Positions 41,004 to 56,164 of a stretch of DNA of 64,000 bases are shown piece after piece. Under the pieces are notes generated by a model, which did no database searches, had not been told where the DNA came from, and worked only from the letters and a program-made list of their open reading frames with translations. The stretch is from NCBI RefSeq assembly GCF_001006305.1, contig NZ_LBHJ01000003.1:733709-797708 (forward strand), written 5' to 3'. Positions within the stretch are counted from its first letter, which is position 1. Every line of letters starts with the position of its first letter. Source of the stretch: Silvibacterium bohemicum (GTDB lineage Bacteria; Acidobacteriota; Terriglobia; Terriglobales; Acidobacteriaceae). Made by a program: the position numbers and the translations under genes.

Positions 41004-42800
41004 TCAAGCTTGTACCGCCGTAACGGCCGACATGGCCCCGATGGGCTTGTCCATCATCGACCTTGACGCTTCAGGCTGATCTCGTTCGTAGAGGGCCTGG
41101 TACACAGAGCAATCACACACGAGTTGCGCATGCGTCCCTTCGGCGACGATTGAGCCTGCGTCCAGCACGATGAGGCGATCGACCCATGTGAGCGATCGAA
41201 GCCGGTGGGATATCAGGATCATCGCCATGTTGTCCTGGAAACTTGCCAGCGCTTTGAAGAGCGCATACTCGGTTGGCAGATCCAGTGCTGAGGTCGATTC
41301 ATCGAGTATCAGAACGGACGGTCGTCGTAAGAGAGACCGTGCGACAGCCAGTCGCTGCTTTTCGCCTCCTGAGATTCCAGCCGCGTCCTGACCAAGTACC
41401 GTCTCCAGCCCCAAAGGCAACCGCCTGAGAAGTTGGGAGAGCTGAGCCGCTTCGATGACCCGTTCCATCTCCGCCTCCGTCGCATCGGCATTGGCGTATC
41501 GGAGGTTCTCCCGTATCGTCCCGGAAAACAGCAGCGGCTGTTGCGGCACGTAGCAGACGCTCTTTCGCAGCGCTCGAAGGCTGTATTCGTGGAGGGGCTT
41601 TCCCTCAAGGAGAATCCGTCCTGTCGTAGGATCAGCCATTCGCGCAAAGAGACGGGAGAGCGTCGACTTTCCCGATCCGCTGCTGCCAACCAGCGCAACC
41701 CGCTCTGCCTTCTGGAGCCGCAGGGAGACGTCTCGCAGTACCGGGCGCTCCGGTCGATAGCCAAACGATATCGCCTCGCATACAACTCCTTCGACGAGGG
41801 GAGCCGGGATGTTCTGGATCGTGCCCACGTCGGCTACGCTCGGTTCGGTGTCGAGCACTTCGTGTACGCGCCGCGCGCTGGCAAGCATCCTCTGTGTTCT
41901 TGAATAGAGTTCCATCGCCGACGATACTGGTTCGAAGATGCGGGTGACATACGCATAGAACGCAACCAGCCCACCAACGCTCAGAGCGCCGATGAAGTAC
42001 TCATGCGCGCCAAGGCCGAGTACGAGCAGGATGCCGACAGCAAGGACGCTTGTGACGGAAACGCTGAATGCTATTTCTGTCCGGCGTTGCTTCCACTGTG
42101 CGCCAACCTGGTCAAGCCACGCGCGAACGGTGCGTGCGATTCGGGCCTCTTCGGCACCGAGGATTTGGATCTGCGGGACTGCATTCAGATGTTCGGCGAG
42201 GTCCCCGGTTGCCTTTCCGACTTTTACCTGGGCATGATCGGCTCTGGATTGGATCTTCTCTCGAAACCGAAGTCGAACCCATAAGAACAATGGCAGAAGC
42301 GGAAGTACGGCAATCGTCATGCGCCAGTTCAATGCCATCATGATCGCCACGTTCACCACGAAGAAGACGAAGGATCTGAAGATCGTATTCCCGACGTCGG
42401 CGCCGTACTGAGATATCTGCTCTACGTCCTGGTCGATGCGGCTCAACTTTTCTCCGAGCATCGTCTTCTCGTGCCAGTCCGCGGAGAGGTTAGTCATGTG
42501 CACGAGTAACTCACTACGTAGGTCCTGGCCGAGCCACTGCGTGACGCGATAACTTGCGAGCCCGGAGAGGCCACCGAAAACAGACCTGCCGACAAAACAT
42601 AGTGCGATGGAGATAACTGCAAAGGTAGTCTGCCTGACGTCCCTGCGAGGTAATGCCACGTCGATTAACTGGCGCATCAACAGCGGATCGATCGTGGCTA
42701 CCGCCCCTGAACAGGCCGCAAGCCCGAGGCCGAGCACAATGCGTTTTGTATATGGGCGTAACTTCTGAAATAGCCATAGCCGTGCGTTTGTCCGCTTCAT
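41004..42800 (-). CDS. ABC exporter (permease-ATPase), probable lasso exporter
   Basis: 598 residues. Six membrane spans at about 20-310, then an ATPase domain: Walker A GSSGSGKSTLSR, Q-loop YVPQQPLLFSG, signature ISGGEKQRLAVARS, Walker B VLILDESTSALD, switch His in ISHRLRSL. The architecture matches McjD-type exporters of lasso gene clusters. It lies 1.5 kb from the B1 gene on the opposite strand, so it is regulated separately. A lipid or drug exporter role cannot be excluded. Confidence 0.85.
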   Translation of the reverse strand: MKRTNARLWLFQKLRPYTKRIVLGLGLAACSGAVATIDPLLMRQLIDVALPRRDVRQTTFAVISIALCFVGRSVFGGLSGLASYRVTQWLGQDLRSELLVHMTNLSADWHEKTMLGEKLSRIDQDVEQISQYGADVGNTIFRSFVFFVVNVAIMMALNWRMTIAVLPLLPLFLWVRLRFREKIQSRADHAQVKVGKATGDLAEHLNAVPQIQILGAEEARIARTVRAWLDQVGAQWKQRRTEIAFSVSVTSVLAVGILLVLGLGAHEYFIGALSVGGLVAFYAYVTRIFEPVSSAMELYSRTQRMLASARRVHEVLDTEPSVADVGTIQNIPAPLVEGVVCEAISFGYRPERPVLRDVSLRLQKAERVALVGSSGSGKSTLSRLFARMADPTTGRILLEGKPLHEYSLRALRKSVCYVPQQPLLFSGTIRENLRYANADATEAEMERVIEAAQLSQLLRRLPLGLETVLGQDAAGISGGEKQRLAVARSLLRRPSVLILDESTSALDLPTEYALFKALASFQDNMAMILISHRLRSLTWVDRLIVLDAGSIVAEGTHAQLVCDCSVYQALYERDQPEASRSMMDKPIGAMSAVTAVQA

Positions 42801-43474: not shown

Positions 43475-43957
43475 GTGAGAAGCTCTGTCCCCAAAACACT
43501 CTCGGCCGTCGAGGGAGAAGTGATCGCAAAGATAAGACTCTGGAGGGCGACGCCCGAGGATGAGTTTCACCAGGAACTCATGAGATATCCTGCGCGCGTT
43601 ATGCAGCACTTCATACTTCTCTACCACGGCCATGTGAAGCTCCACTTCCGACCGATTGCGAGGGAGCTCGGGGTTGAGATGAGAACTCTCGAGCGGGCCT
43701 TCATTGAAGAGTTCGGGAAGAGCATGTTCCAATGCCAGGTCGATGCGCGGCTCGCATTCGCGCAGACACTTCTGCGCTGGATGCCACCTCCAAAGATCAG
43801 CGTGGTCGCCAGCATGCTTGGTTACGACGAGCCACGAGACTTTCATCACTTCTTCGAAAAGCACACGGGTGAGACGCCCTCTGCGTGGGGACGCAAGGAA
43901 CGCGAGAAGGCGAAGCTTGATATCCGCCTGGCTGCCGGCAGCGATGAACTCTTTTAG
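43475..43957 (+). CDS. Short AraC-type DNA-binding protein
   Basis: 160 residues from a GTG at 43475 with AAAGGA upstream. The C-terminal two-thirds is an AraC HTH pair: LHFRPIARELGVEMRTLERA, then ISVVASMLGYDEPRDFHHFF and HTGETPSAWG. There is no sensing domain, only about 45 N-terminal residues. It lies just upstream of, and in the same direction as, the lasso operon, with a 300-nt gap, and is a candidate activator of it. Confidence 0.8.
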   Translation: MRSSVPKTLSAVEGEVIAKIRLWRATPEDEFHQELMRYPARVMQHFILLYHGHVKLHFRPIARELGVEMRTLERAFIEEFGKSMFQCQVDARLAFAQTLLRWMPPPKISVVASMLGYDEPRDFHHFFEKHTGETPSAWGRKEREKAKLDIRLAAGSDELF

Positions 43958-44259
43958 CACCTAGGCCACGATAACGCCGCTCCCGAAAAGGCGAACAGTG
44001 TGAGCGACACTTTGTCGCAGTGTCCGACATGCTTTCGATTGCTCTCGCGATCATGACAGTGTCAGACTCTTCCTCACAGTTGGGTCGACCCCTGCTGAGT
44101 TTCTTGAACATCAGGTGCACCCAGTTTCGTCAAACGGATGCCGTCGGTCTGAGGGCTCGTTCACCCTTGCCATTCGGTATGTGCTTGGTCTACTCGTCGG
44201 GCGCGCAAACTCGTTCAGTCTGAAGACTAGAACTAAACCTTTCCCTGTGAGGTGACGAT

Positions 44260-44547
44260 ATGGGGCGACCTGCTCCGCAACTTCGCTCCATCGTGGATCA
44301 AGATGGGGCAGTTGTTCTCAACAGCGCACGAAATCAGATTACGTCTCTCGATGCGATGGGAGGTTACATCTGGCGACGACTCGAACTGGGTATGGCGAGA
44401 GAGGAAATAGTCCACCACCTCGTCGAGCAGACAGGCGAGGACGTAGCAACAGTTGAGCGCGATATCAATGAGTTCTTCTTAGACCTCGCGTCACGGTCGC
44501 TGCTAACCGACGTACCTACCACGCTGCGACCTCAGGAGGGGCGATGA
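44260..44547 (+). CDS. Lasso B1: PqqD-like leader-recognition protein
   Basis: 95 residues with the PqqD/RRE pattern: LRSIVDQDGAVVLNSARNQI, TSLDAMGGYIWRRLELGM, and LVEQTGEDVATVERDINEFF LDL. In split-B lasso systems this winged-helix protein grips the precursor leader and presents it to the B2 protease and cyclase. GAGGTG precedes the ATG, and the stop overlaps the kinase start (ATGA), so they are coupled. First gene of the operon; 43958-44259 is its probable promoter region. Confidence 0.92.
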   Translation: MGRPAPQLRSIVDQDGAVVLNSARNQITSLDAMGGYIWRRLELGMAREEIVHHLVEQTGEDVATVERDINEFFLDLASRSLLTDVPTTLRPQEGR

Positions 44548-45920
44548 CTTCCGGCCAGCCAAACGAAGATCACGCAGCTTATCGACTGTTGCTAGTAGTG
44601 CCAAGGCTGAACTTGGCATTGCTGGAAGAGGGGAAGGGCAGACCTCGGCTGCCACATATTGACATCCCTCGATACACGCGCACGGCGGAACAGATTACAG
44701 AGGCCGTTTATGAAATATGGGCACTCCGGACCGTTGTCATTGACTGGCTTCACGGACACGATGAGCCCCCCTACTGTGCTGTGTTGGAGATTCTAAATCC
44801 ATGGCCTTCTCCATGCGGGGAGCTTCGCCCCGTTCCCATCGCTCAAATCTCCGAAGAAGTCCTACCGTCAGACGTGCTTGCGACAGTTAACGCCATGCTG
44901 GACGGCAACTGTGAGAGTCGCGGGCCCTTCTCCCGCTTCGGCTGGATCAAGAAAGCAGAGCAATGGGTCCGAGATTGCGCTGAAGATCAGGCCCTTAATT
45001 TCACAGATGTTCGACAGTTCAATGCGAGCGGTGCGTTCGCCCTCGTTCGATTTGGTTCTCGTTCCTCCATATCAGCATATTGGCTGAAGGCGGTCGGAGA
45101 GCCTAATGCGCATGAGTTCGTCACTACTTCTTATCTCGTCGATCAATGTCCCGAGTACTTACCGAAGATTATCGGTATGCGGGGTGACTGGAACGCGTGG
45201 ATCATGGAAGAATTTGGCTCCTCCCTGCACTCATCGGATTCACTAGTTGACTTTGAAATGGCCGCTATCAGGTTGGCACATCTTCAGAAGAAACTCGTTG
45301 GCAGGACTCATGATCTGCTCGCGTCGCGGTTCATCGATCATCGCCTGTCGGCACTGATCTCACACATCGACGAGCTGATCGACTTCCTTGAAGAGGCTAT
45401 GCGGACACAGACTAGCACTAGGGTTCCCGTGCTTTCACGGGGGCGGCTCCGCGAGATCGGACGTCTGCTACACGAATCATGCGGAGCAATGGATACCCTG
45501 GCCATTCCTGACTCCGTGATGCATAGCGATATTAGCCCGGGAAGCATTCTTGGGGATGGTATTGGATGCGTCTTCACTGACTGGTGTGAAGCCTATGTCG
45601 GCAATCCCTTTGTGACTCTAGAACAGCTATGTGTACATACGGCAAGGAAGACGAACGACCCGACTCTCTGGCGTGCAAGTCTGACGTCCGCCTACTGTAG
45701 CTGCTGGCGCGATGTCTTGACAGAGGAACAGATCGGTAGAGCCCTCGAATATGCCCCGTTGATTTCTGTCTTGTCCTATCTTCATGGCCGTGGTGACTGG
45801 CTGCACTCAACTCGGAGACAAGAGGCAGAGTTTCAAAGCTATGCTCGGAGCCTTGCCCGTCACATGGACAGGCTTGCGGCCAGTAATGGCCAGACGGGGG
45901 TTGAATGGCAGTCTGTGTAA
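44544..45920 (+). CDS. APH-fold kinase of the lasso operon
   Basis: 458 residues, paralogous to 33879-35303. The catalytic loop is MHSDISPGSIL: catalytic Asp329 is kept, but the metal-binding Asn of the HxDxxxxN motif is Ser334. The second metal Asp is Asp346 in FTDW. It overlaps B1 by 4 nt and the downstream fusion gene by 16 nt, so it is an integral operon member. Some lasso clusters carry an HprK-like kinase that phosphorylates the precursor; this protein is from a different fold and its substrate is unknown. The Ser substitution may weaken activity. Confidence 0.8.
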   Translation: MTSGQPNEDHAAYRLLLVVPRLNLALLEEGKGRPRLPHIDIPRYTRTAEQITEAVYEIWALRTVVIDWLHGHDEPPYCAVLEILNPWPSPCGELRPVPIAQISEEVLPSDVLATVNAMLDGNCESRGPFSRFGWIKKAEQWVRDCAEDQALNFTDVRQFNASGAFALVRFGSRSSISAYWLKAVGEPNAHEFVTTSYLVDQCPEYLPKIIGMRGDWNAWIMEEFGSSLHSSDSLVDFEMAAIRLAHLQKKLVGRTHDLLASRFIDHRLSALISHIDELIDFLEEAMRTQTSTRVPVLSRGRLREIGRLLHESCGAMDTLAIPDSVMHSDISPGSILGDGIGCVFTDWCEAYVGNPFVTLEQLCVHTARKTNDPTLWRASLTSAYCSCWRDVLTEEQIGRALEYAPLISVLSYLHGRGDWLHSTRRQEAEFQSYARSLARHMDRLAASNGQTGVEWQSV

Positions 45921-48313
45921 ATGCACCTAACGGAGTAGTAGAGACAATCCATGGGAAGCTTGTGGCAGATCCCTATCGTTGGCTAGAGGGCCGGAACTGT
46001 CCCGAAACTGAAGAGTGGCTTGCGGATCAGGGCAAACGCTTCAAGGACTACTTTCAAAGGCTTGGCAGTCTAGATCCACTCCGTTCGCGAGTGCGGGAAT
46101 TTCTGGATGTCGACGCCACTGATCAGATCGGAAAAGTTCAGGGGCGTTACTTCTACCGCAAGCGCAGGGTTGGAGAGCAACAAGCGTCAATTTACGTCAT
46201 GGATTCTCATGCCCGGGCGGAGCACGTGTTGGTAGATCCACGAATCTTAGGAATATACGCATCAGTTGGAATCTATCGGATTTCGAAGGATGGGAATATG
46301 GTCGCCTATGAGCTTAAGCAAGGCGGCGAGCATAGCAAGGCAATCCACGTCGTTGAGACCAATTCAAGGAGGACTCTCACGGACCACCTCCCAACTGGTC
46401 TGTCTCGAGGATTCGCGTTCCGCCATGCGGCTGACGGGTTTTACTATTGCCACGATTTCCTCGGTAACGACCCAATGAATCCCTTGAGCAACCATCAAGT
46501 CAGATTCCACCGTTTCGGAACAGATATAGCAGACGACGAAGTGCTTCTGAGCTTCCCTCGCTCTTACGCTAGCAAACTTGTTTTCAACGCTGGCGATAAA
46601 ATGCTCTCCGCGGTGCTGTACCAGAAACGTGGCGACCAATATCTGGTCGATCTTCACGTTGGACATCAAGATTGTCATGGCTCGTGGAATCGGATTGCTC
46701 AAAATGTGCCCGCGCCGTTCAATCCATTTATCAATCGTGACAAGCTGCTAGTGGTCTCATATGATCGAGCGCCCAAGGGGCAGATCGTTGAGTTGGATCC
46801 TATCGACTGCCATCAGATTCGCGTCGTTGTTCCGGAGTGGAAAGTTCCAATCACTCGGCTGACGGTCATTCACGATCGAATTTATATCAACTATCTAGTA
46901 GGTGCTGAAGCTGCTGTGCGAATCTGGTCGTTCGATGGAGAGTATTTGGGAGAGATCCCCTTGGAGAAAGGGTGTACTTGGGACATTCTGCCAACATATT
47001 CATCGGAGGCTGAGGAACTCTTTCTCTCTCGCGAATCCTTTACGAAACCCCCGACTTTGTATTCCTTCAGTGTCGATACCCGGGAGCGTGCGGTTTGGAG
47101 CCAGAATAGTGTCGCTGCCCTGAACTTCCCTATCGCTTATCAGAAGAGTATGTACACAGCCGAGGATGGCACTTCTATTGCGATCTTGCTGGTCAGTAGC
47201 TCCACTTTGAGTCTGAAGGATCGCCCGGTGGTGATGACAGCATACGGAGGGTTCGGTGTGACCCTCACCCCTCAGTTTTCGGCGTTTATATCGATTATGT
47301 TGGAACGTGGATTCGTCTTTGCATTGCCGGAGATCCGAGGCGGAGGGGAGCACGGAACGGACTGGCATGAAGCAGCGCGTCGCAGAAGCCGTCAGGTGGC
47401 CATCGATGACTTCATTGCGGCCGCGAAATGGATCTGCGAAGAAGGCATCACGAAGCCGGCGAAACTGGCAATCTTTGGGGGATCGAACTCCGGTCTCCTC
47501 GTGGGTGCCGCGATCACACAGAGGCCGGACCTCTTTGGAGCTGGCCTATGTGTTGCCCCATTGTTAGACATGGTTCGCTACCACCGCTTTGACCGAGCTC
47601 ATGTATGGGCGCAGGAGTACGGGACATCTGACGACCCGGATGATTTCGAGGCGCTATATAACTATTCCCCCTATCATCACGTCGAGGAAGGCCGGAACTA
47701 CCCCTCCCTTCTCTTTGTTACTGGCGACAAAGACACTCGCTGCAATCCAGCTCATGCGAGGAAGATGACCGCTCAGTTGCAGAATCGTGTTGCCCAGATC
47801 TCACCAATATTGCTCGACTACAACCCTCAACGAGGACATTCTCCGACGATGCCATTGGCAGTGCGGATTGACGCTCTCGTCCATAGGATTGCATTTCTTT
47901 GCGGCGAACTCGGAGTGGCCACCCATGAGGAACATTGTCCTGTAAGACTCATCTCCAGTGCATCAGGGTGTCTTCTCAAGACAGAGTGGTATTTGCAGAG
48001 GCATCGGGAAAAGCCACTTCAATCTGTTCTTGAAGGAATTCCTACTGCAGAACACAACACAAAGCGTTATTCGGTTCAGCTTGTGTGTCGTGCAATAGAC
48101 GTTGCGTGTGTCCTGTATTTCAAAGAGGTGAAATGTTTGCAGCGTTCTGTCGCGCTGACGATGCTGCTGCGTCGCTACGGTTTAGCTGCGGAGCTTGTGA
48201 TCGGGGGACAGATCGTCCCACCCAAATTTCATGCATGGGTAGAGATGGATGGCCTTGTAGTAAATGACAAGTCCTATGTGTCCGAACTTTACCGTGAACT
48301 GCAACGGTGTTGA
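45905..48313 (+). CDS. Prolyl oligopeptidase fused to lasso B2 protease
   Basis: 802 residues in two parts. Residues about 5-690 are a full S9A prolyl oligopeptidase: N-terminal PNGVVETIHGKLVADPYRWL, propeller about 70-400, hydrolase with Ser527 in FGGSNSGLLVGA, Asp in TGDKDTRCNPAHA (608/610) and His645 in RGHSPTMPL. Residues about 695-802 are the lasso B2 transglutaminase-like domain: Cys744 in KCLQRSVALTMLLRRYG, His776 in KFHAWVEMDG and Asp788 in VVNDKSYV. Both triads look intact. B2 normally cuts the leader; the fused S9 enzyme may trim, proofread or degrade the peptide. No signal peptide, so cytoplasmic. Confidence 0.92.
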   Translation: MAVCVNAPNGVVETIHGKLVADPYRWLEGRNCPETEEWLADQGKRFKDYFQRLGSLDPLRSRVREFLDVDATDQIGKVQGRYFYRKRRVGEQQASIYVMDSHARAEHVLVDPRILGIYASVGIYRISKDGNMVAYELKQGGEHSKAIHVVETNSRRTLTDHLPTGLSRGFAFRHAADGFYYCHDFLGNDPMNPLSNHQVRFHRFGTDIADDEVLLSFPRSYASKLVFNAGDKMLSAVLYQKRGDQYLVDLHVGHQDCHGSWNRIAQNVPAPFNPFINRDKLLVVSYDRAPKGQIVELDPIDCHQIRVVVPEWKVPITRLTVIHDRIYINYLVGAEAAVRIWSFDGEYLGEIPLEKGCTWDILPTYSSEAEELFLSRESFTKPPTLYSFSVDTRERAVWSQNSVAALNFPIAYQKSMYTAEDGTSIAILLVSSSTLSLKDRPVVMTAYGGFGVTLTPQFSAFISIMLERGFVFALPEIRGGGEHGTDWHEAARRRSRQVAIDDFIAAAKWICEEGITKPAKLAIFGGSNSGLLVGAAITQRPDLFGAGLCVAPLLDMVRYHRFDRAHVWAQEYGTSDDPDDFEALYNYSPYHHVEEGRNYPSLLFVTGDKDTRCNPAHARKMTAQLQNRVAQISPILLDYNPQRGHSPTMPLAVRIDALVHRIAFLCGELGVATHEEHCPVRLISSASGCLLKTEWYLQRHREKPLQSVLEGIPTAEHNTKRYSVQLVCRAIDVACVLYFKEVKCLQRSVALTMLLRRYGLAAELVIGGQIVPPKFHAWVEMDGLVVNDKSYVSELYRELQRC

Positions 48314-48343
48314 ACGAGGAATCGGACATCGGGAGGATCCTTA

Positions 48344-50191
48344 ATGAGTGTCATTTATGGCATCTGCGGCTTGGAGGACCCCAAGGCTAATAGGGAAGCT
48401 TTGGGTAGTCTCGCTCATACTACTGCTAGGTATGGGGCTGATGGGACTTTCATCGCTGCAAAAGACTCTGTGGGGATGGCCTATCAGGCTTTCCACACTC
48501 ATGGCAGATCGCATCTTGGACACCAACCGTATCTTGATGCACGCGGGAATATGGTCACGCTAGACGGCAGGCTGGATAATTTCGAAGAGTTAGCCAATGC
48601 ACTAGGAATTAGCCCCGTCGAGACTTCAGACTCATCGTTAGTACTAAGCGCGTTTGAACAGTGGGGCAAGGAATGCTTTTCGCATTTCATTGGCGAATGG
48701 GCTGTTGCCGTATGGAGCGCACAGAGTCAAGTCCTCTATATGGCCCGCGATCACGCAGGATCAAGAACTCTGTTTTACAGGAGGATCGGCGATGTAGTTC
48801 TCTGGTCCACCTATCTAGAGACGTTCTGCCAACAACAAAATCAGCTTGAGCTGAACAAGGAATACCTTGGTTGTCTTCTTTCCTGTCAGCCTGTAGGTGA
48901 TTTGACTCCTTATAAGGGAATCCAGGCTGTTCCCCCCGCGCACTATGTCGAACTAAAAAAAGGAAAGATGACAACGGAGCCCCACTGGAATAGTGGAACA
49001 TGCTCGCAGATTCACTATCGTACTGATGTTGAGTATGATGAACACTTTCTCCAACTCTTTGGACGCGCAATTAGGCGTAGCACGATACCTGTGGAGGTCA
49101 TCCTGGCCGAGCTTAGTGGCGGGATGGATTCTTCATCCATCGTGTGTATGTCCGATCACATGTCCAATTTAGCAAACCAAATAGATACGGTCTCGTACTA
49201 TGACGATACCGAAGCAGATTGGGATGATCGCCCTTATTTCCAAGCAGTGGAAAGATATCGTCAGAAGGATGGATTTCACGTCGATGTGTCTTCGCGGGCT
49301 CCTCGTTACGAACCCGTCTCCTTGGATAACAGAGCCTATCCTTATTTCTGTGGAGACCGAAGTTATGTCGACATTGCAAATCTGTTTGAACGGATCGTAG
49401 GGGACGGACGCTATCGTGTCATCCTCTCGGGAATAGGGGGAGATGAGTTGCTGGGCGGAGTTCCGACCGGAATGCCTGAATTGGCAAACTATCTCCGCGA
49501 ATGTCAACTGCCCAAGTTAATCGCTCGAACATTTTCATGGTGCTTACCCGGGCGCCAACCTCTTATTCCGATGCTGTGGAATACCTTCAGATCTACGATC
49601 GATCTCTATCGGAAGCCTAGTCTTGACGATGAACAAATTCCCCCTTGGCTGAGTGTAGAACTGCCTAAAGTTAAAGGTTCTAGCCTCGGTCTGATTGGGG
49701 GAGCCAAAAAACTTATTGGCGCCAAGCCCAGTTCAGTTGCCAACGATCGCACATGGTGGTCGATTCTTGAGACTCTTCCAAATGGCTCCCCGGGCCTTAA
49801 GGGTTGCTACGAATATCGATTTCCTTATCTAGATCGTGACCTCGTTGATTTCTTACACCGTGTCCCGCGAGAGCAACTTGTACAGCCCGGTCGTCGTCGG
49901 CTCCTCATGCGCCGGGCACTTGAAGGTATTGTGCCGGCAGAGGTGCTGGAGCGGAAGCGGAAGGCGTTCGTCTCGCAGGCTCCGATCATTCATCTCCGAG
50001 AAGGAAGGCAGAGAATAGAGAAACTCCTTAGCGACCCACTGATTTCGCAATACGGCATCGTACATCAGGCTAAGTTGCTGTCAGCGTTTCGCGCAGCGCT
50101 TACAGGCGAAACGAAGTGGGTATGCCATGTCACAAGAGCGATTGAGGCGGAAGTATGGCTCCAGGGCCTTAGGGCACAAGCGGCGTACTAA
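48344..50191 (+). CDS. Lasso cyclase (asparagine synthetase-like C protein)
   Basis: 615 residues. The N-terminal class-II amidotransferase-like domain begins SVIYGICGLEDPKAN and lacks the catalytic Cys2 of true asparagine synthetases, as usual for lasso C proteins. The synthetase domain has the pyrophosphate loop SGGMDS at 258-263 and LSGIGGDELLGG. It adenylates the Asp/Glu side chain and closes the macrolactam on the new N-terminus. GGGAGGAT precedes the ATG. It ends 135 nt before the precursor gene. Confidence 0.93.
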   Translation: MSVIYGICGLEDPKANREALGSLAHTTARYGADGTFIAAKDSVGMAYQAFHTHGRSHLGHQPYLDARGNMVTLDGRLDNFEELANALGISPVETSDSSLVLSAFEQWGKECFSHFIGEWAVAVWSAQSQVLYMARDHAGSRTLFYRRIGDVVLWSTYLETFCQQQNQLELNKEYLGCLLSCQPVGDLTPYKGIQAVPPAHYVELKKGKMTTEPHWNSGTCSQIHYRTDVEYDEHFLQLFGRAIRRSTIPVEVILAELSGGMDSSSIVCMSDHMSNLANQIDTVSYYDDTEADWDDRPYFQAVERYRQKDGFHVDVSSRAPRYEPVSLDNRAYPYFCGDRSYVDIANLFERIVGDGRYRVILSGIGGDELLGGVPTGMPELANYLRECQLPKLIARTFSWCLPGRQPLIPMLWNTFRSTIDLYRKPSLDDEQIPPWLSVELPKVKGSSLGLIGGAKKLIGAKPSSVANDRTWWSILETLPNGSPGLKGCYEYRFPYLDRDLVDFLHRVPREQLVQPGRRRLLMRRALEGIVPAEVLERKRKAFVSQAPIIHLREGRQRIEKLLSDPLISQYGIVHQAKLLSAFRAALTGETKWVCHVTRAIEAEVWLQGLRAQAAY

Positions 50192-50326
50192 CGGACTTCT
50201 GCTTTCGATCAGCAACATACCCAAATAGGTTCCGCCCACGGAAGAAAGGGCGAGAGAGATCCGGGTGAGCAGTGTTAGCACTTAGCAATGCTCTCACGGA
50301 AATTGCAGTAAAGAGAGGAACAAATC

Positions 50327-50482
50327 ATGCTATACACAAAAGCGCATGTCCTTAGCACTGTGAACGCCAACAAGGCAATCCAATCGACCGGAAACCACCC
50401 GCACGGCAAACGTCTGATGATCCTGGACAATGTCGGTGCGGGCGACAAATCCACCACTGGCGCATATGAGGCGGACGAGTAG
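50327..50482 (+). CDS. Candidate lasso precursor peptide (core apparently cut short)
   Basis: 51 residues with GAGAGGA 7 nt before the ATG. The C-terminal half (RLMILDNVGAGDKSTT, then GAYEADE) resembles proteobacterial leaders: hydrophobic L-x-x-L patch, Thr at -2 (Thr43) and Gly45 as core residue 1. Glu at core position 7 could close a 7-residue ring as in xanthomonins, but the TAG stop follows at once, leaving no tail to thread. The frame beyond the TAG is open for 17 codons (FSLPLSNRTIAELFQPR) to a second TAG within the terminator. Nonsense mutation, sequencing error, amber readthrough or a different maturation are possible. Confidence 0.6.
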   Translation: MLYTKAHVLSTVNANKAIQSTGNHPHGKRLMILDNVGAGDKSTTGAYEADE

Positions 50483-50528
50483 TTTAGTCTGCCGCTCTCT
50501 AATAGAACCATTGCGGAGCTCTTCCAGC

Positions 50529-50560
50529 CACGGTAGACGGAGTCACATCTGTCTACCGTG
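50529..50560. terminator. Terminator between precursor and isopeptidase
   Basis: Stem CACGGTAGACGG / CTGTCTACCGTG with an 8-nt loop and one G-T pair, then CTTCTATCCTT. It lies between convergent genes and can serve both strands. The second in-frame TAG after the precursor falls inside its left arm. Confidence 0.8.
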
Positions 50561-50625: not shown

Positions 50626-52941
50626 TCAGATAGGGTTAGGGTGGCTTTCCAATCGCTGCTGTTTCGTCGCCGCTGTTGCATCTGTATCCCGAAGTTGTCT
50701 GAGGTGTTCCCATCCTTCATATTGATCTCTCTTTGCAGGCTGGGGGTCTTCATATCCTTGGAGCCAGAACCGATACCAATCGAGATTTCGTTGGAGACTG
50801 GCGACGCGAGCCTTGGGGTGGTCCGGTTGGTGCTGTTCGTCGGGATAGTAATACATCTCGAATGGCTTTTTTAGACGGGACAAACCTTTAGTGATCTCGA
50901 ACCGATTGGCTAGGTTTCGAGGAATACTTCCTGGCCATTTGAATGGGAGGTCCTCGTGAGCTCCGTATCCCATCATTTCCAAGAGAAGAGGCGTATGGAT
51001 ACTTTCAAGATTGAATGAGATGGAGTACTTCTCCCAGTTCCCCAAAGTGGACCCGTAAGGCGGACCTCCATACATGCGCTCATAGTCCCCGTCCAGCCAC
51101 GGATATAACCAATAGTCGCTCAGACTATACTGCACGTTGTCGGCAACGGTTGCAGCGGCATAGCGAGTATGAGCGTGGACGAGATCGAATTCCACCTCCC
51201 ATCCTGTTCTGCTGAAACCTATAATCCCCACTTTGGACGGATCGATTCTTCCAGTCTTGTCGAGCATGTCTACGGCACTGTCCCAAATGTCCATCTGTTG
51301 AACAGCCTCGCCGATGCCGCCTGGGTAGCCTTCGGGACGATTGTTGAGGTCATCCTGAAACTTCCAATCGATAGACTGTCCGCGGACGAGATACATCATT
51401 CCCGCTGCAGCGATCGGTTGAGGAGCGAAGGAGGGATCGTGACTCTCTCCTGAGTCACAGGCAAACCAGCCTGAATTTCCCTTCGTTTGAATCACAAGCG
51501 GATACCGCTTTGCAGGATCGTAGTGCGGAGGAAGGAACAAATAGCCTGTCACCTCCAGTCCGCCTCTGGTTGTCCAGCGCATAGTTTCCACTGAGGCTAG
51601 CTGTTCCTTGCTGAGTTCCGGGTTTAGGTTTGTGAGGATCTGGAGTTTCCTCTGGTCCATCGAATACTCGACCAGTTCAGGTGGCGTGGTGATCGTCTCG
51701 CGCGTTCCCATAATTGTTGTGCCATCTGAAGAGAGGAGGGAGAGTCGATCTAGGTCTGAGTGAGCCAGGTCAATTCGATCGACTTCGTGCCAGGAGTCGC
51801 CGGCGCGGCGGAGCCTTACGATCGCAGCAAATCCGCTTCGAAGGACAACGTCCCCGTCTGGTCGCCATGCCAGAGGCCCTTCGTGATGAAATGGGACGTT
51901 CTCGAAGACCTCCTCCACCTCCCCTGACTCCACGTCAACAGCAAAGAGGTTTGCGTCTGCCCCCGAGGTTCTATGAGCACGAATGTCCTGCTCTTGCCAA
52001 CGGCTTCCAATTGGGGACGGCGAGTTTACAAGAAACGAGCGACTGTTGTTGGACCATAGCGGCGTACTCGCAGGGTATAGCGAGTTGATGGCCAAGGATG
52101 TCGCCGCGGTGTCTATGTCGTAGAGAACCATGATGTCGAACTGATCGGAATTAAGAAAAGACTTCATTACCGTGTCTTGTCTCCAACTGTCGGGGACGCT
52201 GTCGGAAAAGTAATTGAACAGGAGTCGTTTCCCATTTGGTGACAAACTGAGCGATCGTGCAAACGGCAGATGTGTTGTCTTGACATGAGTGAACGGATTT
52301 TCGATCGTTACCTGATGTGGTAAAGACCACCCCCCATCGCCTTTGCGACGACGGAAAAAAATGGATCTAGCCACAGTAGCATCAGTCATGTCTGGTCCCG
52401 ACGCAATGCGATAGCCGCTGGCAATATCGTCGGTACTTGTTCCCGGCGTTCTCTTCGCCGAGGTCCCCGTATCTACGATCGTATAGGCTATAGTGTCTCC
52501 CTCAGAGTCGATGCTATAGGACTCGATCTGGTTCTGGGTGCTAGAAAGCCGCTGCAGCTTTTCTGTTGAGGTATCTACTATTACTAGCTGCGTGCTATTA
52601 CCGCTCTCATCACCCATGAGTAATGCGACACGGCGGTCATCATTCAGCCAGTGAACGTCTGACAGGGATGCGCTAGTCAACACGAGCTTTCCTTCTGGCG
52701 AAGAGCTGCTCGTGAGATCGCGCACAAATAGTTTATAGTCGTTGCGATTGTGTTCGATGTTGGGTGATTTCACAAGATAGGCTACTCTCTTGCCGGTTGC
52801 GCTCAGCCATAGCCCAGTTATGTATCTAACGCTGATGCAATCGCTCGGTGACACGTTGGAGATTTGAGCCCATACGGTACCACTCGATCCTCCAACAAGA
52901 AACATGCACATACCCAGGATGCAATTGCGAATCCTGCTCAT
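50626..52941 (-). CDS. AtxE2-like lasso peptide isopeptidase (S9 family)
   Basis: 771 residues. Signal peptide about 1-26 (ILGMCMFLVGGSSGTVWAQ), beta-propeller to about 470, then the hydrolase: Ser577 in GIIGFSRTGWE, His704 in YPDEQHQPDHP, and an acidic residue probably Glu655 in LLLEMMGYGAHED. The C-terminus YEDPQPAKRDQYEGWEHLRQ is the end typical of annotated AtxE2-family enzymes. Such enzymes open the lasso ring in the periplasm of producers. It follows the TonB receptor by 31 nt, forming an uptake-and-opening unit. Confidence 0.85.
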   Translation of the reverse strand: MSRIRNCILGMCMFLVGGSSGTVWAQISNVSPSDCISVRYITGLWLSATGKRVAYLVKSPNIEHNRNDYKLFVRDLTSSSSPEGKLVLTSASLSDVHWLNDDRRVALLMGDESGNSTQLVIVDTSTEKLQRLSSTQNQIESYSIDSEGDTIAYTIVDTGTSAKRTPGTSTDDIASGYRIASGPDMTDATVARSIFFRRRKGDGGWSLPHQVTIENPFTHVKTTHLPFARSLSLSPNGKRLLFNYFSDSVPDSWRQDTVMKSFLNSDQFDIMVLYDIDTAATSLAINSLYPASTPLWSNNSRSFLVNSPSPIGSRWQEQDIRAHRTSGADANLFAVDVESGEVEEVFENVPFHHEGPLAWRPDGDVVLRSGFAAIVRLRRAGDSWHEVDRIDLAHSDLDRLSLLSSDGTTIMGTRETITTPPELVEYSMDQRKLQILTNLNPELSKEQLASVETMRWTTRGGLEVTGYLFLPPHYDPAKRYPLVIQTKGNSGWFACDSGESHDPSFAPQPIAAAGMMYLVRGQSIDWKFQDDLNNRPEGYPGGIGEAVQQMDIWDSAVDMLDKTGRIDPSKVGIIGFSRTGWEVEFDLVHAHTRYAAATVADNVQYSLSDYWLYPWLDGDYERMYGGPPYGSTLGNWEKYSISFNLESIHTPLLLEMMGYGAHEDLPFKWPGSIPRNLANRFEITKGLSRLKKPFEMYYYPDEQHQPDHPKARVASLQRNLDWYRFWLQGYEDPQPAKRDQYEGWEHLRQLRDTDATAATKQQRLESHPNPI

Positions 52942-52972: not shown

Positions 52973-55900
52973 TTACCAGGTGAACTTCAAATTCAATTGG
53001 AGCGAACGGGGGCCGCCCATTTGATACAGCGGACTCAGGTTTCCGAGGCTCTGCGCGAGGATCTCTGTCGCTAGGCCAAATTGGACGTTCGTGCAGGTGC
53101 CCCCTACCGTACCGCCACATGTAGCGCCGATGAAGCCGAAGTTAGGATGATTGGAGATATTGAAAGCTTCCGCTCGGAACTGTCCGCGCAGTCTGTCATG
53201 GATCGGGAAGGAGCGTCGGATCGCAATATCGCCCTGGGCAGCTCCAAATCCTCTTACAAAATTGCGAGGTGCGTTGCCCGCTTGGCCGCTTGTCGGCATC
53301 GTGAATGCATCTGGATTAATACGGCGCCCACCGGGGTATACTGACCCGCTCAGATATAACGGCACGCCACCCAAAAGATTTAATCCTCCATATTCCGTCG
53401 CATGGGTCGCCGGATCAACATAGGAACTCCCGTTTAGCGTGATTGGAAAAGCCGTTCGAGCGGTAAATCTTCCGTCGAGACCCCAGTCTGAACTGAGAGT
53501 GCGCAGCCAGGAAGCGCCTCTAGTATGGGGAAGGTCGTAGGATACCGCGGAGGTTGCGTTGTTCCGAACGTCAAGGTCGGAATTGCCGTACTTATATGGG
53601 AAGGCGTCATCTTGCGATCCGTAGTCCAAAGCGTGAGACCACGTGTATGACGCTAGAACCTGGAGACCACGTGTGACCTGTCTTTGATATTTGAATTGCA
53701 GCGCGTTGTAGGTTGAGGTCAAGCCATTTGTGAACACATAGAGGTAGCCAAAATTAGGATTGATAGAGGAAATGTCGGAGAACTGTTCCCGCAGAAGCTT
53801 TCTTCCATTTGCGCCGACATAGGATAGCGTGACTGATTGTGAGTGACCGAGAGCCTGCTCCAGGCTCGCATTCCACTGCAATGTATAAGGCAACTGCAAG
53901 CGGGGCGAATAAGTAAAAATATAAGCATATGGAGCGCTGGGAGGATTGGTGATGGATGGCGCCACGACGTTAGGAGCGACCGGAAAGCTTGCCGACGTTC
54001 CGTAGTCCGTACCAAAGTAATTGTTCGCCGAAAACCCTGGCCCCTGAAATCCCTGCGATCCGGTCTGTTGCCCCGTGTCAAAGTAAATGCCGGCGCCACT
54101 ACGAAAAACCGTCTCCCAATTAGGGCTGTTGTGGGCCACGTAGGCGACACCCAAACGAGGAGCAATTCCAAACCAATCCGTCCTCCACAGTGACGTACCT
54201 TGCGGAGCGAGTGTCATAGTTGCAATGTTATTGAGACCTACCACCGTGTAGGGCGTCGGGCCATGAGAGACACTCGGCGCTGGGTTAATATCCCACCGGA
54301 CGCCCATTGATACGTTGATACGGGATGAAACCTTCCATTCGTCTTGTGCAAAAGCTGAGAAGTTAGCATATATAGGATCATTGGCGGCAGTGGAAGTTCC
54401 CGAGCCAAGATCGACGTTATTGGCTGCTGTTGTCGCTTCGCTGAAATAGTTATATGACGCATTAGCGATCTGTACCGGTATGGTCGGGGTTAGCTTACGC
54501 CAATCGATACCAAGTTTGAACGCATGTGCACCTTGCCGTAGAGCGATCGTATCGACTATGTTCCACTGCTTCTGTTGCCCGCGAACCGTCCCACTTTCCG
54601 AAATTGCCGGGTAATAGCCACCGAAGCCCGGCGAAAGTGATACCTCCGAGTTGGCACTAGGAATTCCTTGAAGGGCGAAGAGGTCGACGGGAATAGCACC
54701 TCCAAAATTATCGTCCGAATACTGATAAGATGTTCCGTTCGTGCTCAAGCTTAGGCGGAGGTCGTTGGTAATGTTTGGTGTGAAAGAGACCGTCGCGCCA
54801 AAAGTATAAGTGCGAGACAGGTACGTCGAGTTAAGGATGACGGATGGGGTTGAGGAGTCTGTAGAGGTACCCCGCGCCTTCGTGTAAGAAGGAGTATTAC
54901 TAAACCGGAAGAATAGGTGAATTTTTTGGCTGACATTGTGGTCTAGGCGGGCGCTCGTTGCATCGAGTTGGCTCGGATTGGACCAAGCACCGACAAACTG
55001 GCCCATTCCGCTGGTGAGGTCCGGGTAGCCTATGGTCGGCAGCGGAAATGCATTCAAAGCCTGTTGTAGGGCGCCAGAAGTTGACTCACGCAGTGCAACG
55101 TCAGGCACGGCATTTACGGAGACCGGCGATGGTTGGACGAGCCGAAGTCCCTCGTATGAAAAGAAAAAGAAGCTTCGATCTGCTCCGTTATACACGTGGG
55201 GAATTCGGATAGGGCCACCAAGAGTTCCGCCAAAATCATTTTGTCGCTCCGCAGTTTTCTTGGTGACTGGAACTGTATTGTTGTTGAACCAACTGTTTGC
55301 ATCGAGTGCATCGTTCCGGAAGTAATCAAAGACCGCCCCGTGCCAATCGTTTGTTCCCGATCGCGTAACGAAGGAAAACTGACCTCCGGGACTACGTCCA
55401 AATTCTGCCGAATAAGTAGAACTCTCGACGCGGAACTCTTGCAAGGCGTCCACTGAAACAAGCCCCTGTGTCGTTCCTAGGGCCGTAGAGGTTGGCAGTG
55501 AACCACCGACTGATGCCTGGTTGGGTCCCAAAGGGGCTCCAGTATTGGCACTTGCACCATCTACGGTGTAATAGTTCGATTCGGTCCGTTGCCCGTTGAT
55601 GCTAAACTCCCCGGTGGTTCCCAACTGTCCGGAGTTGACCTGTGGCGAGTTTGTAATGGCTCCAGGAGTTGACAAGATTAGGCTCTGAAAGGTGCGGCCA
55701 TTGAGGGGAATGTTGCTTACGAACCTGCTATCAATGACGGTGCTTACCGAGGCGTCGGTAGTATTGATCGTCGTGCCGCTTCCGTCGACTTCTATAGTTT
55801 CGGTTGAGGGACCCACCTTCAGGATCAGTTTCAGATGCTTGTCGTCTCCGACATTTAGCACAATGTTATCTACAGTTATGTCTGCGAACTGCGGTTTAGA

Positions 55901-56164
55901 CACCGTCAGCGCATAGTGGCCCGGTTTTACGAATGGGAAAACTGCGTTCCCAGCGTTTCCGCTACTGACGCTTTGTTGCTGATTCGTGTCTGTATTCCTC
56001 AGTGCTATGCCTGCTTTGGACATAGCTGCGCCCGATGTATCGGCTACTGTCACGGATAAGCTGGCCGAACTTGACTGAGCATGACTCTGCCGGATGGCCA
56101 AAGTACAGACGGCCGCTAGCAGACATATGACAATCGCGCGACTAGTGATTTGTGTGGTGGGCAT
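52973..56164 (-). CDS. Oar-like TonB-dependent receptor, candidate lasso importer
   Basis: 1063 residues. Signal peptide about 1-29, carboxypeptidase-regulatory-like domain about 33-115 (LSVTVADTSGAAMSKAGIAL), plug about 125-260 (IPLNGRTFQSLILSTPGAIT; GQFSFVTRSGTNDWHGAVFD), then a large barrel ending LQLNLKFTW. Oar-like receptors are typical of Acidobacteriota. It lies between the sigma gene (67 nt upstream) and the isopeptidase (31 nt downstream), so its probable ligand is the lasso peptide made by the facing operon. Confidence 0.88.
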   Translation of the reverse strand: MPTTQITSRAIVICLLAAVCTLAIRQSHAQSSSASLSVTVADTSGAAMSKAGIALRNTDTNQQQSVSSGNAGNAVFPFVKPGHYALTVSKPQFADITVDNIVLNVGDDKHLKLILKVGPSTETIEVDGSGTTINTTDASVSTVIDSRFVSNIPLNGRTFQSLILSTPGAITNSPQVNSGQLGTTGEFSINGQRTESNYYTVDGASANTGAPLGPNQASVGGSLPTSTALGTTQGLVSVDALQEFRVESSTYSAEFGRSPGGQFSFVTRSGTNDWHGAVFDYFRNDALDANSWFNNNTVPVTKKTAERQNDFGGTLGGPIRIPHVYNGADRSFFFFSYEGLRLVQPSPVSVNAVPDVALRESTSGALQQALNAFPLPTIGYPDLTSGMGQFVGAWSNPSQLDATSARLDHNVSQKIHLFFRFSNTPSYTKARGTSTDSSTPSVILNSTYLSRTYTFGATVSFTPNITNDLRLSLSTNGTSYQYSDDNFGGAIPVDLFALQGIPSANSEVSLSPGFGGYYPAISESGTVRGQQKQWNIVDTIALRQGAHAFKLGIDWRKLTPTIPVQIANASYNYFSEATTAANNVDLGSGTSTAANDPIYANFSAFAQDEWKVSSRINVSMGVRWDINPAPSVSHGPTPYTVVGLNNIATMTLAPQGTSLWRTDWFGIAPRLGVAYVAHNSPNWETVFRSGAGIYFDTGQQTGSQGFQGPGFSANNYFGTDYGTSASFPVAPNVVAPSITNPPSAPYAYIFTYSPRLQLPYTLQWNASLEQALGHSQSVTLSYVGANGRKLLREQFSDISSINPNFGYLYVFTNGLTSTYNALQFKYQRQVTRGLQVLASYTWSHALDYGSQDDAFPYKYGNSDLDVRNNATSAVSYDLPHTRGASWLRTLSSDWGLDGRFTARTAFPITLNGSSYVDPATHATEYGGLNLLGGVPLYLSGSVYPGGRRINPDAFTMPTSGQAGNAPRNFVRGFGAAQGDIAIRRSFPIHDRLRGQFRAEAFNISNHPNFGFIGATCGGTVGGTCTNVQFGLATEILAQSLGNLSPLYQMGGPRSLQLNLKFTW

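Follow-up and report, generated by a model that had tools for sequence, protein, structure and literature searches.

A prolyl oligopeptidase fused to the B2 leader peptidase in a lasso peptide operon of Silvibacterium bohemicum, a rare variant of a common gene arrangement

Prolyl oligopeptidases (POPs) that act on the leaders of other bacterial RiPPs have been described, namely FlaP, MpcP and probably ProTM32, with two characterised bacterial RiPP POPs being counted before its own in the available text of PMC12951456. These enzymes resemble the one described here in being S9 POPs tied to RiPP maturation, but they belong to lanthipeptides, clavusporins and biarylitides, and no lasso B2 partner is mentioned in the available portions of PMC12951456 and PMC10885120. 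Among lasso peptides, POP genes between the core genes have been reported for three Group II metagenomic split-B clusters (PMC12670498). The peptidase genes were omitted from the constructs of that study and a product was obtained from one cluster only, 89 of Group I. These clusters share a POP among the core genes with the present locus, with neither a fusion nor a POP role stated in the sections of that paper available.

Two further systems are similar in gene content. The Bradymonas bsf cluster (PMC10368454) has split B1 and B2 genes, a kinase, and a leader with Ile(-2) and the motif YxxPxL at -17 to -12; it differs in that its kinase has low identity to HPr kinases, no POP is found among its seven genes as given in the accessible text, and its ring acid lies at position 8 from the leader cut. 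The acidobacterial BGC 482.1 (PMC9064862) has B1, an APH-family kinase, B2, C and two A genes consecutively, but the available table rows show neither a POP nor a fusion. Known fusions of B2 are those with B1, with a nucleotidyltransferase and with a transporter (PMC7549694, PMC8498205, PMC7533575, PMC10885120), the partner in the parts of these papers available not being a second protease. A POP-B2 fusion was not found described in the PMC full-text literature, the sole literature searched and accessible in part, and its novelty in print is thus provisional.

The stretch of DNA analysed here (the window; 64,000 nucleotides) comes from the 6.46 Mb genome of Silvibacterium bohemicum (G000:C12). 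An operon with the gene order B1-kinase-POP/B2-cyclase-precursor was identified on its plus strand at approximately 44-50.5 kb (Table 1), with the lasso cluster set of A, B1, B2 and C all present together. The first-pass annotation, made from the sequence alone, had placed the fusion in an operon with B1, a kinase, the cyclase and a precursor, and each of these was identified between 44260 and 50482. Two other clusters occur in the same genome, one with POP as a separate gene (L034) and one without POP (L035).

Table 1. Features of the lasso peptide operon, its flanking genes and the POP-B2 fusion protein in the window.
Feature	Position	Strand	Evidence
ABC exporter	41004..42800	-	Pfam/NCBIfam; related gene near operon in many related loci
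AraC-type HTH regulator	43475..43957	+	Pfam; related gene in 10 other loci
B1, PqqD-like leader-binding protein	44260..44547	+	PF05402, 3.8e-12
APH/choline-kinase-fold kinase	44544..45920	+	Fold match of predicted model; aligned relatives
POP-B2 fusion protein, 802 aa	45905..48313	+	Single open frame; Pfam and NCBIfam matches; comparison with L105
S9A N-terminal beta-propeller, fusion residues 10-400	45932..47104	+	Peptidase_S9_N (PF02897), E 3.6e-43
S9 catalytic domain, fusion residues 456-669; S527, D610, H645	47270..47911	+	Peptidase_S9 (PF00326), E 5.8e-48
Fusion linker, residues 672-700	47918..48004	+	45% identical to L105, no indel
Lasso B2 cysteine leader-peptidase domain, residues 707-799; C744, H776, D788	48023..48301	+	Transglut_core3, E 2.7e-18
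C, lasso macrolactam synthetase (Asn synthetase-like)	48344..50191	+	Pfam and NCBIfam
A, precursor peptide, 51 aa	50327..50482	+	Profile search; GAGG upstream
AtxE2-like lasso isopeptidase relative	50626..52941	-	NCBIfam 176.8 bits against cut-off 400
Outer-membrane beta-barrel with CarboxypepD_reg domain (OMP_b-brl_4), candidate receptor	52973..56164	-	Domain match

The gene at 45905-48313 encodes a complete S9A prolyl oligopeptidase, with propeller and alpha/beta-hydrolase domain, joined to a lasso B2 domain. All three Pfam matches of the fusion (Peptidase_S9_N, Peptidase_S9 and Transglut_core3) were above cut-off, the score of PF13471 on the B2 domain being 66.4 against a cut-off of 26, and fusion residues 701-792 matched NCBIfam lasso_biosyn_B2 (NF033537) with 59 bits against a cut-off of 33. 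Because both the Pfam and the NCBIfam B2 matches exceed their cut-offs, the C-terminal part of the 802-aa frame was assigned as a B2 domain. At the N-terminal end of the B2 models approximately 20 positions are left without a match in the window, and the B2 domain of L105, the second fusion locus described below, matches positions 12-115 of 117. An S9A POP joined to a B2 domain in one frame, with the catalytic residues of both halves intact, had been proposed at first pass, where a homology search was named as the check on the B2 half; the profile matches and the alignment of all six residues to relatives bear this out.

The Ser-Asp-His triad of the POP half is kept in all 43 lasso POPs, and in an alignment of 77 B2 domains C744 was found in 76, H776 in all 77 and D788 in 71, with Glu replacing it in six. 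The POP half is nearest to the prolyl endopeptidase 2bkl in both sequence and fold (model TM 0.75 by query, 0.89 by target), and Trp568, kept in 37/43 lasso POPs, aligns with a Trp of 2bkl which we take to be the P1-stacking residue. The predicted structure of the fusion was good for the POP half, with a pLDDT of approximately 37 for the B2 half, which only two alignment rows cover. The B2 domain is predicted to remove the leader, and the POP half may cleave after Pro.

Lasso operons have an S9-type hydrolase in the isopeptidase AtxE2, which opens the isopeptide of the finished lasso peptide. The POP of the window differs from it in being an S9A enzyme with a complete propeller that is closest to 2bkl, and a relative of AtxE2 is encoded separately downstream. 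The NCBIfam score of this downstream gene does not reach the AtxE2 equivalog cut-off (Table 1), and on this match it is put down as a relative of AtxE2 and no more. For the kinase of the window no Pfam model matched, and 36 of the 39 members of its alignment match APH; its predicted model (pLDDT 92.6) resembles APH and choline kinases in fold, with a best E of 1.7e-8 and a TM of approximately 0.4-0.6. The catalytic-loop Asn is kept in 37/39 of these proteins and is Ser in the window and in L105 (L105:5600-6973), and the kinase of both fusion operons may have lost or changed its activity.

Locus L105, from a second genus, was found to carry an identical fusion layout, with 66% protein identity and no gap across the 802 residues. 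Between the two fusions dN was approximately 0.23 and dS was saturated (NG86). Since the fusion is gap-free in a second genus, with synonymous changes saturated and replacement changes few, it is regarded as old and selected and not a sequencing error; an erroneous joining of two genes, which the first-pass annotation had raised as a finding that would undo its claim, is ruled out by this independent genome. The two POPs are sisters in a FastTree POP tree (support 1.0), and one fusion event therefore suffices. In six of eight relatives compared, the POP stop falls approximately 20 nt beyond the start of B2 and in a different frame, the overlap being 4 nt in the remaining two. The old B2 start (47925) falls in the linker of the window and is now out of frame; from it to a conserved Glu-Trp there are 59 nt in the window and 45 in relatives (L050, L061 and L094 among them), and the net difference of 14 nt brings POP and B2 into one frame. 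No in-frame ATG was found between codon 649 and B2 in the window or L105, nor a start codon shared at the junction, and B2 is therefore probably translated only as part of the fusion.

The frequency of this arrangement was determined in two batches of loci. A lasso B2 search of 200 genomes of the family gave matches in 57 and listed 72 places, of which 70 regions were taken, the place of the window itself and a single weak one being excluded. By our own profiles, 37 of the 70 were of the present operon type (19 with kinase and POP, ten with kinase only, two with POP only and six with neither), the other 33 being other B2 types. Another 40 loci were hand-picked from a search of 397 genomes of the order (17 with kinase and POP, 13 with kinase only, three with POP only, five with neither and two of other type). 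Together with the window and L145 this amounts to 43 POP loci among 77 loci with this B2. POP lies directly 5' of B2 on the same strand in all 43: as a separate gene in 40, fused in the window and L105, and in L104 followed by a B2 fused to the cyclase instead. The POP-B2 fusion is thus rare (two of the 43 POP-containing operons examined) and departs from the usual form, in which POP is a separate gene directly before B2. The fusion anatomy that had been described at first pass, a B2 joined to an intact S9A enzyme, stands for the window but is not the norm, while the search for it across genomes, also put forward there, yielded one further case.

In wider searches, frames of at least 700 aa among the places fetched from the 397 genomes of the order were found in the window, in G303 and in G276, the last being a B2-cyclase fusion; no further POP-B2 fusion was found in the genus of G303 (62 genomes). 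At class level (399 genomes, E up to 1e-20), the window alone among the matches listed spans POP and B2 unbroken, G303 being absent there, and in a plasmid search with 196 matching records the matches of the 10 listed all end by residue 726. The fusion is real, old and rare, and the lasso POP family conserved.

Other neighbouring genes of the operon were also found to be fused, with B1-B2 fusions in five loci (L041, L042, L043, L128 and L142) and KIN-POP, KIN-B2 and B2-C fusions in one locus each (L125, 9374-12799; L106, 8971-10878; L104, 7102-9345). Such fusions point to products that act jointly, or merely to the ease with which overlapping genes fuse. It is a real possibility, although short of probable, that the POP-B2 fusion is neutral, with POP and B2 performing their usual separate jobs and the loss of the boundary being without consequence, which would be compatible with any role of the POP. 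The overlap of approximately 20 nt in most relatives, the fusions of other pairs and the rarity of the POP-B2 form agree with this, but the fusion has persisted in two genera from a time before synonymous changes became saturated, its linker is free of indels and no internal B2 start is shared.

The 43 lasso POPs were then compared by FastTree with 79 S9A POPs lacking a nearby B2, taken from the best 80 of 567 POPs; L145 was the only one of these 80 with a nearby B2, there a separate gene. All 43 form one clade (support 1.0) apart from the 79 others. A chance S9 neighbour is ruled out by the adjacency to B2 in 43/43 loci and by this monophyly. On the phylogeny, POP is a dedicated component of lasso operons, which is a more general finding than the fusion; this subfamily is a little-noticed enzyme of a well-studied pathway.

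What the POP may act on was approached through the precursors. The motif YxxPxL at -17 to -12 is described for leaders, Ile(-2) being proven in BsfA and Ile/Val(-2) found in Acidobacteriaceae (PMC10368454, as available in part), and the cut-site rule was transferred from BsfA to the present precursors. With Tyr as the anchor at -17, Ile or Val occurs at -2 in 87/90 precursors, a figure partly built into the search profile, which comprised the first 27 residues and whose seeds required such a leader together with the C-terminal tag. For the window precursor the predicted leader is residues 1-19 (Y-17, I-2, Q-1) and the predicted B2 product begins at residue 20. An acid at positions 7-9 after the predicted cut was found in 13/55 precursors of POP-containing operons (POP+) against 23/35 of those without POP (POP-) (Fisher 1.3e-4), the latter comprising 14/22 with kinase only (1.4e-3 against POP+) and 9/13 with neither; counted per locus, the figures were 10/42 and 19/29 (6e-4). 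Three mis-anchored L125 precursors (Gln at -2) are included in the 13 and so count against a trimming role. In L034, the cluster with a separate POP in the genome of the window, the acid already lies at 9. In PGLS over 71 loci, with 12 changes of POP state on the tree, POP is associated with 1.73 additional residues ahead of the acid on the cyclase tree (p 9e-4) and 1.30 on the B2 tree (p 0.013). Fixing lambda at 1 gave p values of 0.003 and 0.036, and the yes/no form of the test was weaker after tree correction (0.016 and 0.18). A longer extension before the ring acid in POP+ operons is therefore supported by the predicted cut sites, and it supports, without proving, a second, ring-defining cut by POP.

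The reading that we tentatively favour is that B2 and then POP act on one precursor, the POP cut setting the start of the ring. B1 would present the precursor and B2 would cut after Ile(-2)-Gln(-1), releasing a core, of 32 residues in the window, that would enter the POP. This length is near the limit of approximately 30 residues generally given for substrates of POPs. POP would trim the short N-terminal extension so that the ring acid comes within reach of the new N-terminus, after which the cyclase would close the ring. Counted from the transferred cut site the first acid lies at position 15 in the window and 14 in L105; a cut after the single Pro of the segment, Pro6 of STGNHPHGKRLMILD in the window and Pro5 of THSHPNAKIATMAD in L105, would place the Asp at position 9 in both. 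Here we infer the cut order, the cut sites and POP as the trimming enzyme; the fusion would, by channelling, tether both proteases and shorten the path of the intermediate.

In favour of two successive cuts are the POP-B2 adjacency in 43/43 loci, the monophyly, the triads, the fusion in a second genus, the fit to the leader rule, the longer extension and the POPs that act on leaders of other bacterial RiPPs. Against them, 13/55 POP+ precursors need no trimming and 12/35 POP- precursors would need it, while the agreement of Pro between the window and L105 counts as a single inherited case, whose chance we estimate at approximately 3 in 8. Over the whole family, Pro was observed seven times at positions giving a 7-9 ring against 8.9 expected (p 0.84), and it occurs in the spacer of 13/55 POP+ and 2/22 kinase-only precursors (Fisher 0.21). 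In the absence of such an enrichment, Pro-directed trimming is unsupported as a family-wide rule. Of the other residues, A, G, S, T, V and N likewise showed no enrichment at those positions, and Lys did. Counted from a Lys that recurs in the cores, the acid usually falls on residue 7 or 8, and this Lys is perhaps ring residue 1 or 2. The suggestion made at first pass of a machine that cuts twice thus gains indirect support from the precursor geometry and loses by the lack of Pro enrichment. Its strongest form, in which the leader peptidase does not define lasso residue 1 but an obligatory S9A cut does, two genera having fused both proteases into a polypeptide that hands the intermediate to itself and then feeds the cyclase, is to our mind somewhat doubtful. 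If POP does make a second cut, the standard core prediction, in which the leader cut is the ring start, would be wrong for these clusters, and constructs without the peptidase (as in PMC12670498) could fail because of its omission. As one polypeptide, the fusion allows either cut to be probed with single active-site mutants.

Clean-up of the leader, also suggested at first pass, is a serious rival to this trimming, although on balance unlikely. Here POP would degrade the free 19-residue leader or a linear, unthreaded core after the B2 cut, so that B1 is freed, residues are recycled and the threaded product is spared, the fusion bringing the scavenger to the site of leader release. The leader length fits an oligopeptidase by the size limit given above, POP adjoins the leader-releasing B2 in all 43 loci, the Pro of YxxP is kept in most leaders listed, and gains or losses of POP (12 state changes) are what an accessory step would show. 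However, the longer POP+ extensions are not predicted by such a role, the leader of the window is without that Pro (YTKA), and a dedicated monophyletic POP is not required by it alone. For a third role suggested at first pass, the destruction of misfolded product, evidence was found neither in favour nor against.

A C-terminal tag of the form [AGSCP]-Y-x-x-[DEN]-E (50462-50479 in the window, AYEADE) was found in 55/55 POP+, 19/22 kinase-only and 2/13 precursors with neither gene, the seeds having been chosen with the tag. The plant enzyme PCY1 uses a follower peptide, and structures of PCY1 with the follower bound occur within the 50 best fold matches of the model. POP could recognise this conserved tag (A/G/S-Y-x-x-D/E-E) and remove it from precursor or core, and Pro precedes it in some precursors; but the tag does not need POP, since it is present in those 19 kinase-only precursors, and such processing is improbable. 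Self-resistance, in which the operon POP would be a target copy titrating a lasso peptide that inhibits prolyl oligopeptidases, is in keeping with the inhibition of prolyl endopeptidase by the lasso peptide propeptin (PMC7549694, in the text available), but is very improbable given the fixed place of POP before B2 and the fusion, which point to biosynthesis, and the highly varied precursor cores.

Several loci showed individual features. The one of the 77 B2 domains with Leu for the catalytic Cys is by alignment that of L044, a decayed cluster from the genus of the window in which the cyclase is split over two frames and the kinase is shortened. At L036:3159-4826, B2 ends a long frame that may be nucleotidyltransferase-like in appearance. 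L085, L120 and L137 have POP without a kinase by profile, and the gap between B1 and POP holds no frame above 144 aa on the coding strand. At L066:6985-9014 POP is broken up, its two frames measuring 397 and 420 aa, and in L112, which has a near-identical precursor, POP is intact.
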